DNA from: Candidatus Nitricoxidivorans perseverans | GTDB lineage: Bacteria; Pseudomonadota; Gammaproteobacteria; Burkholderiales; Rhodocyclaceae | NCBI GenBank assembly: GCA_030246985.1 | Contig: CP107246.1 | Coordinates: 1,242,282-1,306,281, forward strand | DNA length: 64,000 nucleotides | Direction of reading: 5' to 3' | Part shown: positions 2,158-13,088 of the stretch, in pieces | How the letters are laid out: the number at the start of each line of letters is the position of its first letter | Position numbering within the stretch: position 1 is the first letter of the stretch | Program-made: the position numbers and the translations under genes | Notes under the pieces: generated by a model | What the model saw: the letters and a program-made list of their open reading frames with translations, nothing else | Database searches by the model: none | What the model was told of the DNA's origin: nothing

Positions 2158-2681
2158 TTTGCCTTCTTTCCTTCGATGTCGGCGGTGAAGCCGATTGGAC
2201 GTTTTATTTGTTGTGGCGGAGTCATGAGTTGCCGGATCGCATCGAATACAGCGGAGAATTGCTTGTCGTAACGCTGCTCAAGTTCGTCGAGCCGTTGCGC
2301 TAAATCCCGGTGTTCGGCAAGCATGCGGCGTAGCCGGACGAAGGCGCGCACGATTTCAATGTTGACTTGAACTGCACGCGGGCTTTTCAGGACGCTGGAG
2401 AGCATGCCTACGCCTTGCTCGGTGAAGGCATGGGGGGCCGTGCGCGCACCGCCCCAACTTGAAATCACATTTTGTGATTTCAAGTTCTTCCACTCCTCGG
2501 CATTCAGTTGAAACATGAAGTCGGCGGGAAAGCGTTCGATATTGCGCTTGACTGCCTGCATCAAGGCCCCCGGCTTTACTTCGTAAAGCTTGGCTAGATC
2601 GGAAGACAACAGCACACGCTGCCCACGCAGCGTCAGGATAGATAGTTCAATCTCGGATATGTTGGTTAATAAGGTAGTCAT
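2154..2681 (-). CDS. ORF6N domain DNA-binding protein
   Basis: 175 residues. The N-terminal part (roughly residues 8-110) matches the ORF6N domain: ILTLRGQRVLLSSDLAKLY, then QAVKRNIERFPADFMFQL, then the FTEQGVGMLSSVL segment typical of phage antirepressor-type proteins. A charged helical, probably coiled-coil tail follows (LAQRLDELEQRYDKQF). ORF6N domains bind DNA and are common in phages and mobile elements; the target here is unknown. It overlaps the upstream 185-residue gene and the downstream purD by ATGA on both sides, so all three are coupled. Base composition is visibly more AT-rich than purD or purH, consistent with horizontal acquisition (inference). Confidence 0.85.
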   Translation of the reverse strand: MTTLLTNISEIELSILTLRGQRVLLSSDLAKLYEVKPGALMQAVKRNIERFPADFMFQLNAEEWKNLKSQNVISSWGGARTAPHAFTEQGVGMLSSVLKSPRAVQVNIEIVRAFVRLRRMLAEHRDLAQRLDELEQRYDKQFSAVFDAIRQLMTPPQQIKRPIGFTADIEGKKAK

Positions 2682-3235
2682 TGAGACGCCATCCGACTTT
2701 TCTTTCCAAGGTGCTTTTGCAAAGCCTCTTCGATCTGGAGCAACCTGAGGACGGGATTCTTGAGTTCCTCCGTTTTGCTTCGAACGTATTGCCTGAGTTC
2801 GTCGATGCGGCGCTGAAAATCTTCATTGACGACGAACTCAACAGAGACGCCGTATCTCGCAGCAATATTTTCCCGAATCTGACGCAAGTCTTTTTCTTGG
2901 TTATGGGCAGCACTCTCGTTCGAAGCTCGAATGATTGGGCTCCATAGCATGAAGTGTTGCTGATATTCAGGAAAAAACTTTCGAGCGTATTCAATATCGC
3001 GTGAGAACTTCTCCGTTAATTTCTCGACATTGTTAGGCCGTTTGTTTTTCGTGTACTTCAGGCCAGTGACTAAGTGAATTGCAACTTCACAAACATAAAG
3101 CGAATGATTGGAAAGATCGATGCCCACCACATCGATCTCCCCTTGGACATCGGGCGTATAGAGGTTTTGTTGGGTGAATTCGCAGCCTTTGATGTGCTGA
3201 AGATAAGCAGCGACCAACTCCTCGCCGATATTCAC
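2678..3235 (-). CDS. putative PD-(D/E)XK-superfamily protein of unknown function
   Basis: 185 residues, GTG start at 3235. I do not recognise a named family. The N-terminus has the layout of a PD-(D/E)XK nuclease fold: E6 in helix 1, G32-E33-I34-D35 on a strand, then E50-V51-A52 on the next strand (VCEVAIH). The usual lysine of ExK is replaced by alanine, so it may be inactive or use a displaced residue. The C-terminal third is a long amphipathic helix ([15 protein letters not shown]). It starts 22 bp after purH and overlaps the ORF6N gene by ATGA, and it is noticeably AT-richer than its neighbours. It could be a nuclease or restriction-like protein working with the ORF6N partner; this is inference. 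Confidence 0.6.
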
Positions 3236-6140: not shown

Positions 6141-6329
6141 ATGGAACATGTCGTTTCCCGTTACCCGCTGAAACAGGCGCCGCGCGACACCGAATACTGG
6201 CTGTCGCGTCCTGCGTCGGAGCGGCTCGACGCCGTCGAGTTGCTGCGGCAGGCCTGGCTGGAAAACCATCCCGATGCTGTCCAGGGACTTCAAAGAGTTT
6301 GTCGCATCGTTAAACGCCCGCGGGGTTGA
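6141..6329 (+). CDS. small protein paired with a nucleotidyltransferase
   Basis: 62 residues, beginning MEHVVSRYPLKQAPRDTEYW and ending QRVCRIVKRPRG. Similar short proteins with RYPL...YWLSR...ERL..VE.LR and a terminal RVCRIVKRP are, as I recall, common immediately upstream of nucleotidyltransferases of the type encoded at 6274, often annotated as hypothetical. It may be the partner or antitoxin-like half of a two-gene module; the function is unproven. It overlaps the following gene by 56 bp in another frame. The start has no Shine-Dalgarno; a TAGAAT box sits 6 nt upstream, which suggests a leaderless mRNA. Confidence 0.7.
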   Translation: MEHVVSRYPLKQAPRDTEYWLSRPASERLDAVELLRQAWLENHPDAVQGLQRVCRIVKRPRG

Positions 6330-6711
6330 GTACCTCGTGGTCGGCGGCTACGCGATGGCCCTGCATGGCCGGCCGCGGCATACGGGAGACCTCGACGTAT
6401 GGGTCGGCAGCGATGTGGAAAATGCGAAACGCCTGATGACCGCATTGCGCGACTTTGGCTTCGGCGAGGTCGGCCTGTCGGCGGGCGATTTCACCGAGCC
6501 GGGACAGGTGATCCAGCTCGGTTATCCGCCGTTCCGCATCGACCTGCTTACGTCCATCGATGGCGTCGATTTTACGGAGGCGTGGCAGCGGCGCCAGAGG
6601 GTCGAGCATGACGGTCTGCAGATTTTCTTCATCGGGCTCGACGATCTCAAGGCCAACAAGCGTGCGTCGGGACGGCCGCGGGATATCGACGATCTGGAAA
6701 ACCTTCCTTGA
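6274..6711 (+). CDS. nucleotidyltransferase-fold protein (DUF6036-like)
   Basis: 145 residues. The N-terminus shows the Pol-beta-type nucleotidyltransferase signature: G24-G25 in VVGGYAMALHG, then D39-L-D41 in TGDLDVWV, with a third acidic residue D90 in FRIDLLTSI. The C-terminus has FIGLDDLKANKRASGRPRDIDDL, a segment shared by this family. Such proteins can nucleotidylate RNA, protein or small molecules; several act as toxins or antitoxins in two-gene modules. The start lies 56 bp inside the preceding 62-residue gene, so the two are probably coupled. Substrate unknown. Confidence 0.8.
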   Translation: MLSRDFKEFVASLNARGVEYLVVGGYAMALHGRPRHTGDLDVWVGSDVENAKRLMTALRDFGFGEVGLSAGDFTEPGQVIQLGYPPFRIDLLTSIDGVDFTEAWQRRQRVEHDGLQIFFIGLDDLKANKRASGRPRDIDDLENLP

Positions 6712-6753
6712 GGCCTGACCACTGTTCGGCCAGAGCGGTCATAGGGTCTCTAG

Positions 6754-6864
6754 CAAGAATCGGGCGGCATTGCGCCGGAACCCGCTGTTCAACTGCTGAT
6801 GGATCTAATTGGCCGCCACCCGGTAGATGTGGTGAGGGGAATGCTGAAGGAGGGGTTTGGCTAG
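6754..6864 (+). pseudogene. possible C-terminal remnant of a lost gene
   Basis: A stretch of 36 sense codons flanked upstream by an in-frame stop (6751-6753) and ending with TAG at 6862-6864. It reads like a protein C-terminus (PEPAVQLLMDLIGRHPVDVV, then RGMLKEGFG), with ordinary amino-acid composition rather than the Arg/Pro-rich look of antisense frames in this genome. Its stop codon lies inside the inverted repeat at 6855-6872. No start or upstream domain remains. It could be chance. Confidence 0.25.
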
Positions 6865-6872
6865 CGCCAAAC
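6855..6872. repeat. perfect inverted repeat upstream of the methyltransferase cassette
   Basis: GTTTGGC-TAGC-GCCAAAC: 7-bp perfect arms with a 4-nt centre, 64 bp before the methyltransferase start. There is no T-run on either side, so a factor-independent terminator is unlikely. An operator for a dimeric regulator of the cassette, or the end of a lost gene, are the alternatives. Confidence 0.5.
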
Positions 6873-6888
6873 TACAGGTCTTCTCTCT

Positions 6889-6980
6889 CAGTAATGGCGG
6901 GAAGTTACAATTCTCGTCCTATGAGATGGGGGGTATATGCGCAGTGGGATTAAGTCGGCCAGTCGCAGTAATGGTGGGCG
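6889..6980 (+). repeat. short direct repeat pair in the cassette leader
   Basis: CAGTAATGGCGGG at 6889-6901 recurs as CAGTAATGGTGGG at 6966-6978 (12 of 13 identical, 77 bp apart). The second copy lies inside the first codons of the methyltransferase frame if translation starts at 6937, or in its leader if it starts at the GTG at 6997. It may be binding sites for an autoregulator or coincidental. Confidence 0.3.
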
Positions 6981-7896
6981 ATTAAGGAAGGCCGGGGTGA
7001 GTCGCTTTGCCAGTCCGTTGCGCTATCCAGGCGGAAAGGGTGGGCTGGCGCCATATCTTGCCGCCCTGCTTGAGCTCAACGACCTGACTGGTTGCGTCTA
7101 TTATGAGCCCTACGCTGGCGGCGCCGGTGCTGCCCTGAATCTGCTGACGCGCGATGCCGTGTCGCGGGTGCATATCAACGATGCGGACCCGCGTGTGGCC
7201 GCGATGTGGCGGGCCATGCTCAACCAGACCGACCGTTTCGTCGAGCGCATCAACGAGGTGCCGCTGAACATCGATGAATGGCGCCATCAGCGGGCAGTTT
7301 GTGCCGCCGCGTTCGGCGACGACTTTTCCATCGGTTTTTCCGCTTTCTACATGAATCGCTGCAACCGTTCCGGTGTGCTCAAGGGGGCCGGTCCCATCGG
7401 TGGGTTGGCGCAGGACGGCAAATGGCGCCTCGATGTCCGCTTCAACCGAGAGGAACTGTCATCCCGCATCCGCTTGCTCGGAAGGCTGCGTGATCGTATC
7501 GTCGTCAGCGAACGGGATGCCGTTGATTTCCTCAAGAGCGAATTGCCGGCCGGTAGGGCTCGTGCCCGGGCTTTCGTCTACGCTGATCCACCCTATGTCA
7601 TCAAGGGTCGCAGCCTCTACCTCAATGCCTATCGGCCGCAGGACCATGCCGTCCTTGCCGGTTATTTGTCCCGCCAGAACGTATTGCCGTGGCTGGTCTC
7701 GTACGATGATGCGCCGCTGATCCGCACGCTCTATGCAGACCATCAACTGGAATCGTTGCCAATCCGCTACACTCTGAACGAGAAGCGCTATGCCCATGAA
7801 CTGCTGATAGCCCCGCACCGCCTGTATCTGCCGGTCTCCGGGCGCTCTGTGTATGGAGCCAGACTCAATTCCACTACTGCAGGATTGCATCCATGA
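6937..7896 (+). CDS. D12-class DNA adenine N6-methyltransferase
   Basis: 319 residues from ATG 6937. An alternative GTG at 6997 (299 residues) has the better Shine-Dalgarno (AAGGAAGG). Motif order is that of the Dam/DpnIIA (alpha, D12) group: motif X-like RYPGGKG at 29-35, SAM-binding motif I EPYAGGAG at 57-64, and catalytic motif IV DPPY at 217-220 followed by VIKGRSLY. It transfers methyl from SAM to N6 of adenine within a recognition sequence I cannot predict. It is the first gene of a three-gene operon: its stop overlaps the ParB-like start (ATGA), and a PD-(D/E)XK nuclease follows. Linkage to a nuclease argues for a restriction-modification role rather than an orphan methylase. Confidence 0.9.
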   Translation: MRSGIKSASRSNGGRLRKAGVSRFASPLRYPGGKGGLAPYLAALLELNDLTGCVYYEPYAGGAGAALNLLTRDAVSRVHINDADPRVAAMWRAMLNQTDRFVERINEVPLNIDEWRHQRAVCAAAFGDDFSIGFSAFYMNRCNRSGVLKGAGPIGGLAQDGKWRLDVRFNREELSSRIRLLGRLRDRIVVSERDAVDFLKSELPAGRARARAFVYADPPYVIKGRSLYLNAYRPQDHAVLAGYLSRQNVLPWLVSYDDAPLIRTLYADHQLESLPIRYTLNEKRYAHELLIAPHRLYLPVSGRSVYGARLNSTTAGLHP

Positions 7897-9008
7897 CAGA
7901 CGGAACTACCCTCATTGAACGGCTACCCACTGACAGCCTGCATTTCGACCTGCGTAACCCGCGCTTAGCCGAGTACGGTATCGACGATGGGCTCGACGAA
8001 GATCAGGTTCTCGAAATTCTCTGGGATGCCATGGACGTGATGGAATTGGTGCAATCCATCTCGGCCTCAGGTTTCTTCGACCACGAAGCGCTCATCGTCG
8101 CGACCGAAGGCGGTAAGGATGTCGTGATCGAGGGCAACCGTCGTCTCGCGGCGGTCAAGGTATTGCGCAGCCCAGGATTGGCGGCAGAGAAGGGATGGCA
8201 GATCCCGAAGATTTCTGCGAAAGACAGGAAGCGCCTCGACCATCTGCCGGCTATCCGCCACAGCCGTGAAGAGTCATGGCGCTATCTCGGCTTCAAGCAC
8301 GTCAATGGCCCGGCCAAGTGGCGTAGCTATGCCAAGGCCATGTACATCGCCGAGGTCCATCGCAAGTATGGTGTCTCGCTGTCGGACATCGCGAACCAGA
8401 TCGGCGATCGCCACCGCACGGTGCAGCGCCTGTTTCGCGGATTGATGGTGCTTGAACAGGCCGAGCGGGCAAAAGTGTTTGACCGCGAAGACCGCTTCCA
8501 CAAGAACCTGTCGTTTTCGCACTTGTATACGGGTCTCGATTACCCCGAGATGTCTGGATTTTTGGGTGTAGCGACAAAGGAAGCTGAATCGGTTAATCCC
8601 GTACCGAAAGAGAAAGTCAAGGCACTCGGCGAATTGTGCGTTTGGCTGTATGGCAGTCGCAAGGAAAAGCGTGAGCCCGTGGTGCGCTCGCAGAATCCCG
8701 ATCTCCGCCAGCTCAATTCCGTAGTTGCCAATCGGGAAGCTGTGGAGGCCTTGCGCGCCGGTGCGCCGTTGGACAAAGCTTTCGAAATCAGTCGACCACC
8801 ACAAGCTGTGTTTGAATCCGCACTACTGGCTGCAAAACGGGAACTGACAACCGCTCGGGCTCATCTGACTACTGGGTATGACAACTCGGAAATGTTATTT
8901 CGCATAGCTGGCACTATTGCCGACATGGCCGATGACATCTACGAGGAGCTTGAGCGCAAACGAAAGGCTCCGCGAGGACGGGACAAGAAGCAGCGTGTGG
9001 CGGAGTAA
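7893..9008 (+). CDS. ParB/Srx-fold N-terminal domain protein with HTH
   Basis: 371 residues. The N-terminal half has the ParB/sulfiredoxin fold layout: LVQSISASGFFDHEALIV (box I-like, about 51-69), then VIEGNRRLAAVKVL (about 77-91), where GNRR replaces the GERR motif of chromosomal ParB that binds CTP. A helix-turn-helix follows (GVSLSDIANQIGDRHRTVQ, about 158-176). The C-terminal half is helical with a basic end. No parA-type ATPase is nearby, so plasmid partition is unlikely. Placed between a methyltransferase and a nuclease, it probably recognises or slides on DNA for them (inference). ParB/Srx domains adjacent or fused to DNA methylases are known from phages and mobile elements. Confidence 0.8.
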   Translation: MTDGTTLIERLPTDSLHFDLRNPRLAEYGIDDGLDEDQVLEILWDAMDVMELVQSISASGFFDHEALIVATEGGKDVVIEGNRRLAAVKVLRSPGLAAEKGWQIPKISAKDRKRLDHLPAIRHSREESWRYLGFKHVNGPAKWRSYAKAMYIAEVHRKYGVSLSDIANQIGDRHRTVQRLFRGLMVLEQAERAKVFDREDRFHKNLSFSHLYTGLDYPEMSGFLGVATKEAESVNPVPKEKVKALGELCVWLYGSRKEKREPVVRSQNPDLRQLNSVVANREAVEALRAGAPLDKAFEISRPPQAVFESALLAAKRELTTARAHLTTGYDNSEMLFRIAGTIADMADDIYEELERKRKAPRGRDKKQRVAE

Positions 9009-9014
9009 GCGGGG

Positions 9015-9944
9015 GTGTTCAAGCTCCCCTCCAAGCCCTCGCCGCGGGCCGAGATTCACGAACTGGCGGATTTTGCCGAGTTATTGGCCTGGGCCAATAA
9101 AAAGGTTTCGGCGCGTGAAATCGTGGCCTTTCTCGGGCGCCAAGGTGAGAGTGAGCCGAATGTCGGCTGCGACGATGTCGATGACGACAACGCCGCTGAT
9201 CTCGAAGACGTAATGAACGAGATCGAGCGTCGCCAAGCGGCGTGTCGTGGTCGATACCCCTATGCACTCGATCCCACCGGCAATGTCTTGCGCTATACGC
9301 CGACGGCGGATGAATGGCAGGGGCAGTTGTACGGCTATCTGTTGCTGAGTACGCGCCTGAACATGAAGAATGACCGGACGCACGCGGGCATCGATGGCGC
9401 CCATCTGCTGGAGGCCATTTCAGCGGCAGCGCTGCACCAGTATCTAGGGCAGGGGCGGGCGCGGGTCGAGATTTTCGGTACGGCTGCTGGAAGTAGCGAT
9501 TTTCCTGGAAAGGTGAATTCGATGTGCGCCGCCGTGGGTGAGGGTAATGGATATCGGCAGCTTGATTTCGGCCCGGTTACTGCCAATGACGACAAGTTGG
9601 ATGTCGTCGCTTGGGTGCCGTTTGCCGACCGGTCGGCGAGTCAAATCATCGTCTTCGCGCAATGCAAAACCGGTACCGCCTGGAGTGAGCAGCTGTGTCA
9701 ACTTCAACCCAGCGCATTCGTCAAGAAGTGGCTTGATCGACAGTTTCTCCATGATCCATTGCGGGCATTCTGCGTCTCCGAAGCAGCCAATCGCGCACGC
9801 TGGGGTGGGTACGCAGCAGAAGGGGGGCTGCTGTTTGATCGTTGCCGTCTGGTGGACTGCTGCGATGCGATTGATACTAAGCTATTCGCACAGATTGAAA
9901 AATGGAATCGCGCCGCATTCAAGGTGGCTCAAAAAGATTTATAG
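9015..9944 (+). CDS. PD-(D/E)XK restriction endonuclease-like protein
   Basis: 309 residues, GTG start at 9015 with GGAG about 10 nt upstream, 6 bp after the ParB-like gene. A variable N-terminal region (1-75) with an acidic run (CDDVDDDNAADLED) is followed by a helical segment and then the nuclease core: D196 in KLDVVAW and Q216-C-K218 in VFAQCKTG. This is the D...QxK form of the PD-(D/E)XK active site also found in Mrr-type enzymes. The acidic residue on the preceding helix is probably in HLLEAISAAAL. The likely role is DNA cleavage controlled by methylation status. The final gene of the cassette; codon use is less GC-biased than in the flanking housekeeping genes. Confidence 0.75.
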   Translation: MFKLPSKPSPRAEIHELADFAELLAWANKKVSAREIVAFLGRQGESEPNVGCDDVDDDNAADLEDVMNEIERRQAACRGRYPYALDPTGNVLRYTPTADEWQGQLYGYLLLSTRLNMKNDRTHAGIDGAHLLEAISAAALHQYLGQGRARVEIFGTAAGSSDFPGKVNSMCAAVGEGNGYRQLDFGPVTANDDKLDVVAWVPFADRSASQIIVFAQCKTGTAWSEQLCQLQPSAFVKKWLDRQFLHDPLRAFCVSEAANRARWGGYAAEGGLLFDRCRLVDCCDAIDTKLFAQIEKWNRAAFKVAQKDL

Positions 9945-10117
9945 CGTCCTACGGATGACGAGCTATCGGAGTGACTGCTGCACTCAAAGACCTGCCGCTG
10001 GATTGTCGAGCCGGCGAATGACGGCTTCGGCCGAACAGCAGAACTCGCGAATCGCGAGTTCCCTCAGCAAGTAAGTACCCCCGCCCGCCTGGACATGCCC
10101 CGGCATGAGGCCCGCGC
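9945..10117. other. intergenic boundary of the defence island
   Basis: 173 bp between the nuclease stop and the convergent pepP stop. I see no gene. It holds the perfect palindrome described separately and a second GC-rich dyad (GCCGGCGAATGACGGC, imperfect, about 10012-10027). The strong symmetry suggests a transcription end or repeat element rather than coding sequence. Confidence 0.5.
10042..10060. repeat. 19-bp perfect palindrome
   Basis: AACTCGCGA-A-TCGCGAGTT: 9-bp perfect arms around a single base. There is no T-tract. It sits between convergent genes at the right edge of the methyltransferase/nuclease island. Candidates are an element boundary, a dispersed palindromic repeat or a protein-binding site; no assignment is possible from one copy. 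Confidence 0.6.

Positions 10118-13088
<2,971 letters not shown>

Follow-up and report, generated by a model that had tools for sequence, protein, structure and literature searches.

A methylase, a ParB-fold protein and a nuclease as a probable three-gene restriction-modification system of bacteria and phages

What kind of system is encoded by a DNA methylase gene, a gene for a ParB-like protein and a nuclease gene that lie end to end in Candidatus Nitricoxidivorans perseverans? The three genes are found in a stretch of 64,000 nucleotides (the window; GenBank assembly GCA_030246985.1, contig CP107246.1, positions 1,242,282 to 1,306,281 of the forward strand), and a sequence-only reading had proposed the ParB-like protein as a third, indispensable member of a system other than plain type II. 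The analysis points to a three-gene restriction-modification (R-M) system as the probable answer, in which the restriction enzyme would be an obligate pair of a ParB-fold nucleotide-binding clamp and a nuclease, accompanied by a replaceable methylase. This reading is based on gene linkage recovered in both directions of search, the swapping of methylase classes, the modelled folds, the conserved nucleotide-binding and nuclease residues, and the occurrence of the pair in a phage defence hotspot. The cassette is laid out as follows:

6937-7896, + strand: D12-class (N6-adenine) DNA methyltransferase, the modification component (319 amino acids; Pfam and PADLOC matches)
7893-9008, + strand: ParB/Srx-fold protein (371 amino acids; AlphaFold model and structure matches)
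9015-9944, + strand: winged-helix and PD-(D/E)XK nuclease (309 amino acids, GTG start; model and active-site conservation)
7893-7896, + strand: ATGA stop/start overlap from the methylase to the ParB-like gene (sequence)
9009-9014, + strand: 6-bp gap from the ParB-like to the nuclease gene (sequence)

The three genes, the overlap and the gap were all confirmed in the sequence, together with the motifs described earlier, i.e., LRYPGGKG, YEPYAGGAG and ADPPY in the methylase, GNRR in the ParB-like protein, and D196 and Q216-x-K218 in the nuclease.

The linkage of the last two genes was followed through ParB-like homologues gathered from genomes, viral contigs, phage and plasmid records, and relatives, with an alignment-based scan succeeding on the viral contigs, where the ParB-like protein of the window alone had returned nothing. 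The nuclease gene lies directly downstream of the ParB-like gene, on the same strand, in 165 of 168 related loci (not counted are two contig ends, the copies from the window itself and L173-L178, six distantly related paralogues of the ParB-like protein), the exceptions being L048, L050 and L056, and most spacings fall between -62 and +16 bp, that is, an overlap or a short gap. Such a recurrence of the gene pair is far beyond chance. In the reverse search, the nuclease profile was run against 398 Pseudomonadota genomes and recovered four intact independent matches besides the window, all four of which adjoin a ParB-like gene and are accompanied by a methylase (D12, D12, C5 and N4/N6 type); of two more matches, one is a fragment at a contig edge and the other is marginal. 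The divergence of the ParB-like protein is also correlated with that of the nuclease (r=0.94, 153 loci). Because of this linkage in both search directions and the co-divergence, the ParB-like protein and the nuclease are identified, at the level of sequence, as an obligate pair. The proposal of an obligatory third component is thus supported, given that the ParB-like and nuclease genes are seldom found apart in either search; the expectation that order and overlaps would be kept was borne out for the order and close spacing of these two genes and failed for the methylase, whose class, side and strand are not constant.

The methylase of the window matches Pfam MethyltransfD12 (E=3.4e-12) and the PADLOC profiles PD-Lambda-5_B (PDLC04018, 1.9e-98) and MTase_II (3.2e-79). 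With classes assigned by profile searches, a methylase is found within 6 kb in 158 of 171 loci (window included), and belongs to one of three unrelated classes, D12, C5 or N4/N6. The arrangement of the window, with a D12 methylase directly upstream on the same strand, occurs in 51 loci, and an in-frame ATGA or GTGA overlap between the methylase and the ParB-like gene in 18 of 50 loci of this arrangement. A D12 methylase is located downstream in 39 loci, a C5 methylase downstream in 47 (mostly convergent, and typical of P2-like phages), and an N4/N6-type methylase downstream in 20, so that class, side and strand all vary among loci, unlike the order and spacing of the ParB-nuclease pair. On the ParB tree (152 rows), the class of the methylase changes at least 8 times and its arrangement at least 19 times. 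For example, the closely related pairs of L063 and L071 (ParB 73%, nuclease 56%) are accompanied by unrelated methylases, one of the N4/N6 type and the other D12. In stable D12 groups, on the other hand, methylase and pair co-diverge (r 0.80-0.97).

What look like natural methylase swaps are also seen in P2-like phages (L140/L149, L002/L003 and L136/L161), where the C5 methylases are 95-98% identical and the ParB-nuclease pairs about 30%.

The ParB-like protein is modelled by AlphaFold (predicted local distance difference test, pLDDT, 93) and comprises a nucleotide-binding domain (residues 7-141), a helix-turn-helix (HTH) region (about 142-305) and C-terminal helices (303-358). Its structural matches include KorB (8qa9, Z 10.8 over 203 amino acids) and the ParB of M. 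xanthus (Z 10.7 over 94 amino acids, 26% identity), and the 22 Foldseek matches of the model at E<=0.001 are all to ParB, Noc or KorB. Judging by the model, this is a ParB/KorB nucleotide-binding clamp fold with an HTH, which, among the putative roles named in the sequence-only reading (DNA clamp, translocator or subunit for site recognition), favours that of a clamp, gated by a nucleoside triphosphate (NTP). NPR at 22-24 and EGNRR at 80-84 (VIEGNRRLAA in the window) are kept in the homologues, and in the P motif G81-N82-x-R84 is present in 110 of 110, R83 in 109 of 110, and the whole of GNRR in 109 of 110. According to a 2025 survey of this fold, the ParB-CTPase fold (PMC12704722), nucleotides are bound only if the conserved arginine of the P motif is present, and members of the fold bind cytidine, adenosine or guanosine triphosphate (CTP, ATP or GTP); as the same survey reports no reliable rule for which, the nucleotide of the ParB-like protein is not predictable. 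The protein resembles the CTP clamps ParB, KorB and Noc in its fold, its nucleotide-binding motifs and the GxxR of its P motif, but differs from them in having GNRR instead of GERR and an invariant H136 and W143 in place of the usual box III, in the absence of a ParA, and in its link to a nuclease. Its N terminus, MTDGTTLIERLPTDSLHFD, contains no LG-(R/K)-GL, which the survey passages give as the ParA-binding motif (PMC12704722), and there is no parA in or next to the cassette. By itself, the window protein has no match in Pfam, and in PHROG it matches phrog_3694 over its full length (1.4e-76).

The model of the nuclease (pLDDT 94.5; predicted template modelling score 0.92) shows a winged helix (about residues 11-96) followed by a PD-(D/E)XK core (97-285). 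The top VIA-align rows are mostly PD-(D/E)XK enzymes, with middling Z values: AF1548 (8.2), MspJI (7.5), PaqCI (7.5), FokI (6.8), BsmI (6.8) and AspBHI (6.4). Since the fold rows belong almost all to one superfamily and the active site is present, the protein is assigned, on its modelled structure, to the PD-(D/E)XK superfamily, with the core fold and the D...(E/Q)xK site in place. D196 starts the strand 197-201 of the model, and Q216 and K218 (Q216-C-K218 in the window) lie in the strand 211-218. Among 161 distinct homologues, D19, E22, R73, Y81-P82, D192, D196, Q216, R276 and R278 are kept in at least 93%, with D196 and Q216 above 95%.

The catalytic lysine is placed less uniformly. It is found at K218 only (QxK, within the strand) in 61 nucleases, at K226 only (just after the strand) in 92, at both positions in three, and at neither in two intact sequences and three fragments, which means that 153 of 158 intact nucleases have a lysine at exactly one of the two positions. 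A lysine shifted as at 226 is a known kind of variation in the PD-(D/E)XK superfamily. K218 accompanies the arrangement with D12 upstream and K226 most of the others, and the ParB tree shows just two changes of position. Given that the lysine moves and yet is almost never absent, the nuclease appears to be under selection to stay catalytic, which provides strong evidence, from its sequences, for a predicted working catalytic site. The earlier expectation of a conserved D/QxK was therefore met for D196 and Q216, while QxK itself holds for the branch of the window only. The nucleases of L092, L068 and L082 carry both K218 and K226, and may be intermediates of the relocation of the lysine.

Profile databases hardly reach this protein. 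The window nuclease has no match in Pfam, NCBIfam or PADLOC, and in PHROG it matches phrog_14650 and phrog_3984 at about 1e-8; a scan of 126 aligned homologues one by one gave no Pfam match and isolated weak PADLOC matches only, and nowhere is the alignment conserved well enough to support a pattern scan.

The pair is found in at least 20 bacterial phyla (genome loci, NCBI names), chromosomal copies included, is frequent in phages, and is present on some plasmids. One of its locations is the P2 phage defence hotspot. The cassette of P2-like phages has phage genes on both sides and includes no helicase gene. Among 5,426 complete E. coli genomes, the Wphi pair occurs in 103 (the laboratory strain E. 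coli W being a carrier) and the 12474 pair in 36, where the annotations are only "ParB N-terminal domain-containing protein" and "hypothetical protein". In phage Wphi, AAN28262 is the ParB-like protein, AAN28261 the nuclease and AAN28260 the methylase Mth, to which the methylase of the 12474 type is 97.8% identical. Families known from defence systems (PD-Lambda-5, PD-Lambda-1, type I S, AbiLi and ThsB) are represented among 120 proteins that neighbour chromosomal loci, a tally made without a control set.

Two loci show the pair in unusual company. The phage scaffold MT835579 (L009:4794-9633) carries two divergent ParB-nuclease pairs, face to face, beside a large P-loop ATPase-like gene, and a pair on a Neorhizobium plasmid (L008:1-7812) is accompanied by DUF262, Z1 and PD-(D/E)XK motif genes, and is perhaps part of a larger system.

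Known systems resemble the cassette in parts. PD-lambda-5 (Vassallo et al. 2022, PMC9519451) likewise combines a ParB-like protein with a D12-type methylase, and its B component is the profile matched by the window methylase. Its A component is matched by the N-terminal part of the ParB-like protein only (about 9-197; best 1.4e-14 versus 2.8e-133, over the full length, for a true A), and the PADLOC model of PD-lambda-5 consists of A and B alone, whereas the cassette adds a separate nuclease that is constant while the methylase varies. Membership of PD-lambda-5 was rejected on these two grounds. The PADLOC candidate PDC-M38A matches part of the ParB-like protein (3.5e-19 to 6e-25), but only about 60-350 of this 715-residue model is covered, and the nuclease does not match it. 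Types I, III and ISP, BREX and DISARM were also rejected, as the sequence-only reading had done for BREX, DISARM and types I and III, since no helicase, translocase ATPase, PglZ/BrxX or similar is encoded by the three genes. Type III enzymes slide on DNA under the control of a nucleotide switch before they cut, and the sliding logic proposed below is similar (a lead only), although the cassette has a ParB fold and lacks a superfamily 2 (SF2) motor or helicase. The cassette fits no defined R-M type exactly, having no helicase and no HNH. The three-gene set was not found described in the open-access literature, a search beyond which lay subscription papers, preprints and REBASE; passages of the 2025 fold survey list HNH and methylase fusions, and those that deal with nucleases do not contain this pair (PMC12704722).

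If the three-gene R-M reading holds, the methylase would mark the host copies of a site, and the ParB-like dimer would load on unmarked incoming DNA, where the binding of a nucleotide (CTP or ATP) would close it around the DNA. The closed clamp may then slide or accumulate and bring or activate the nuclease, which would cut the unmarked DNA. Of this scheme, we infer the formation of a complex, the nucleotide-gated loading, the cutting of unmethylated DNA, and the protection by the methylase. A further step, to be taken tentatively and with some doubt, would be to regard the cassette as a separate type of R-M system, in which an NTP clamp of the ParB fold rather than a helicase joins site recognition to cutting, and the pair is re-partnered with unrelated methylases (D12, C5, N4/N6), its specificity not being fixed in the pair.

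Several observations weigh against the three-gene R-M reading. C5 methylases of P2-like phages are up to 97.8% identical beside pairs that are only 32% (ParB) and 24% (nuclease) identical, and loci with a shared methylase are not clearly more similar to each other in any 15-residue stretch of either protein; a plain R-M pair with the same target site would be expected to have some region that tracks the methylase. This does not prove that the targets differ, because distant methylases can share one site. Six loci have at least 4.5 kb on both sides without a recognisable methylase, some of which look decayed, and the N in place of E in the P motif may, to judge from the sequence, alter hydrolysis. 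For the nuclease, Foldseek gave no significant match in PDB (best E 0.03) or in BFVD, an absence that does not speak for a new fold.

The lack of a specificity-tracking region in the pair is in line with another explanation, in which the methylase reads the site for both restriction and modification, and the ParB-nuclease pair acts as an effector of general use, recruited or blocked by whichever methylase is its neighbour. The class changes on the ParB tree would also be accommodated, as would the cases of nearly identical methylases beside strongly differing pairs, and the converse cases. This is nonetheless considered unlikely, given that a docking surface common to families as different as D12, C5 and N4/N6 is hard to imagine, that methylase and pair co-diverge in the stable D12 groups, and that different methylases can have one target sequence in common. 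An ordinary type II system is a poorer prospect still. In this case, the methylase and a PD-(D/E)XK nuclease, which in the model has a winged helix, the restriction endonuclease fold and a conserved active site, would suffice as a compact mobile cassette. The nuclease would cut by itself, and the ParB-like protein would have an accessory, regulatory role, for example as repressor of the operon, which its HTH might serve. The cassette departs from type II, however, in its near-invariable ParB-fold subunit and its three unrelated methylase classes. A regulator, moreover, is not expected to stay beside the nuclease and co-diverge with it while the methylase is exchanged, and upstream of 48 loci no conserved parS-like palindrome or operator rose above shuffled sequences.

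Both remaining explanations set the methylase aside. GmrSD, a modification-dependent (type IV) system, also couples a ParB/Srx-fold NTPase domain to a nuclease (PMC12839542), and 7 of 119 ParB-like members match Pfam GmrSD_N weakly, so that an attack on modified phage DNA, with the methylase otherwise employed, may be envisaged. GmrSD has an HNH nuclease and no cognate methylase, while the cassette has a methylase and a PD-(D/E)XK nuclease (no HNH family was matched in the Pfam scans of the window proteins or of the 126 homologues), and with a methylase as constant neighbour the host's own DNA might be marked for attack, which makes this reading very improbable. A module for the maintenance or partition of mobile elements, in which the ParB-like protein would segregate DNA, might be suspected from the ParB fold with its HTH and from its frequency in phages and presence on some plasmids. 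With no ParA, no ParA-binding motif, a nuclease with a conserved active site always there, and chromosomal copies across the phyla, it is hardly credible.

Overall, the cassette looks like a bacterial immune system against foreign DNA, whose nuclease is always coupled to a ParB-like clamp and whose protective methylase can be exchanged. If the three-gene R-M reading is true, a CTP- or ATP-gated clamp, best known from chromosome segregation, would police foreign DNA in bacteria and phages without a motor protein, and a widespread restriction module would have gone unnamed so far, since no model in Pfam or PADLOC recognises its nuclease. The swapping of methylases makes the seat of restriction specificity a testable question: the pair, the methylase or both may read the site.

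In the host, the cassette is present as a single copy in a 2.70-Mb single-contig genome, between dusB and pepP, and its stretch has a guanine-cytosine (GC) content of 0.57-0.60 within surroundings mostly of 0.62-0.71. In relatives of the host, dusB also lies near pepP, but the cassette is absent. In these relatives, a gene for a UbiH-type FAD hydroxylase sits between pepP and dusB, where the host has the cassette instead (window 6142-10118), and this hydroxylase has no match in the host genome. Just 3' of the cassette, at window 10041-10061, there is a perfect 21-bp palindrome, GAACTCGCGAATCGCGAGTTC, which occurs once in the genome and may be a terminator, an operator or a site for loading of the clamp. 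Nearby, a DUF6036 nucleotidyltransferase (6274-6711) and an overlapping open reading frame (ORF) of 62 amino acids before it (window 6141-6711) resemble a nucleotidyltransferase toxin-antitoxin pair. Farther off, a low-GC ORF of 185 amino acids without a family (window 2678-3235, - strand) contains GEIDVVGID...LYVCEVAI, which resembles a core of the NERD/PD-(D/E)XK type.

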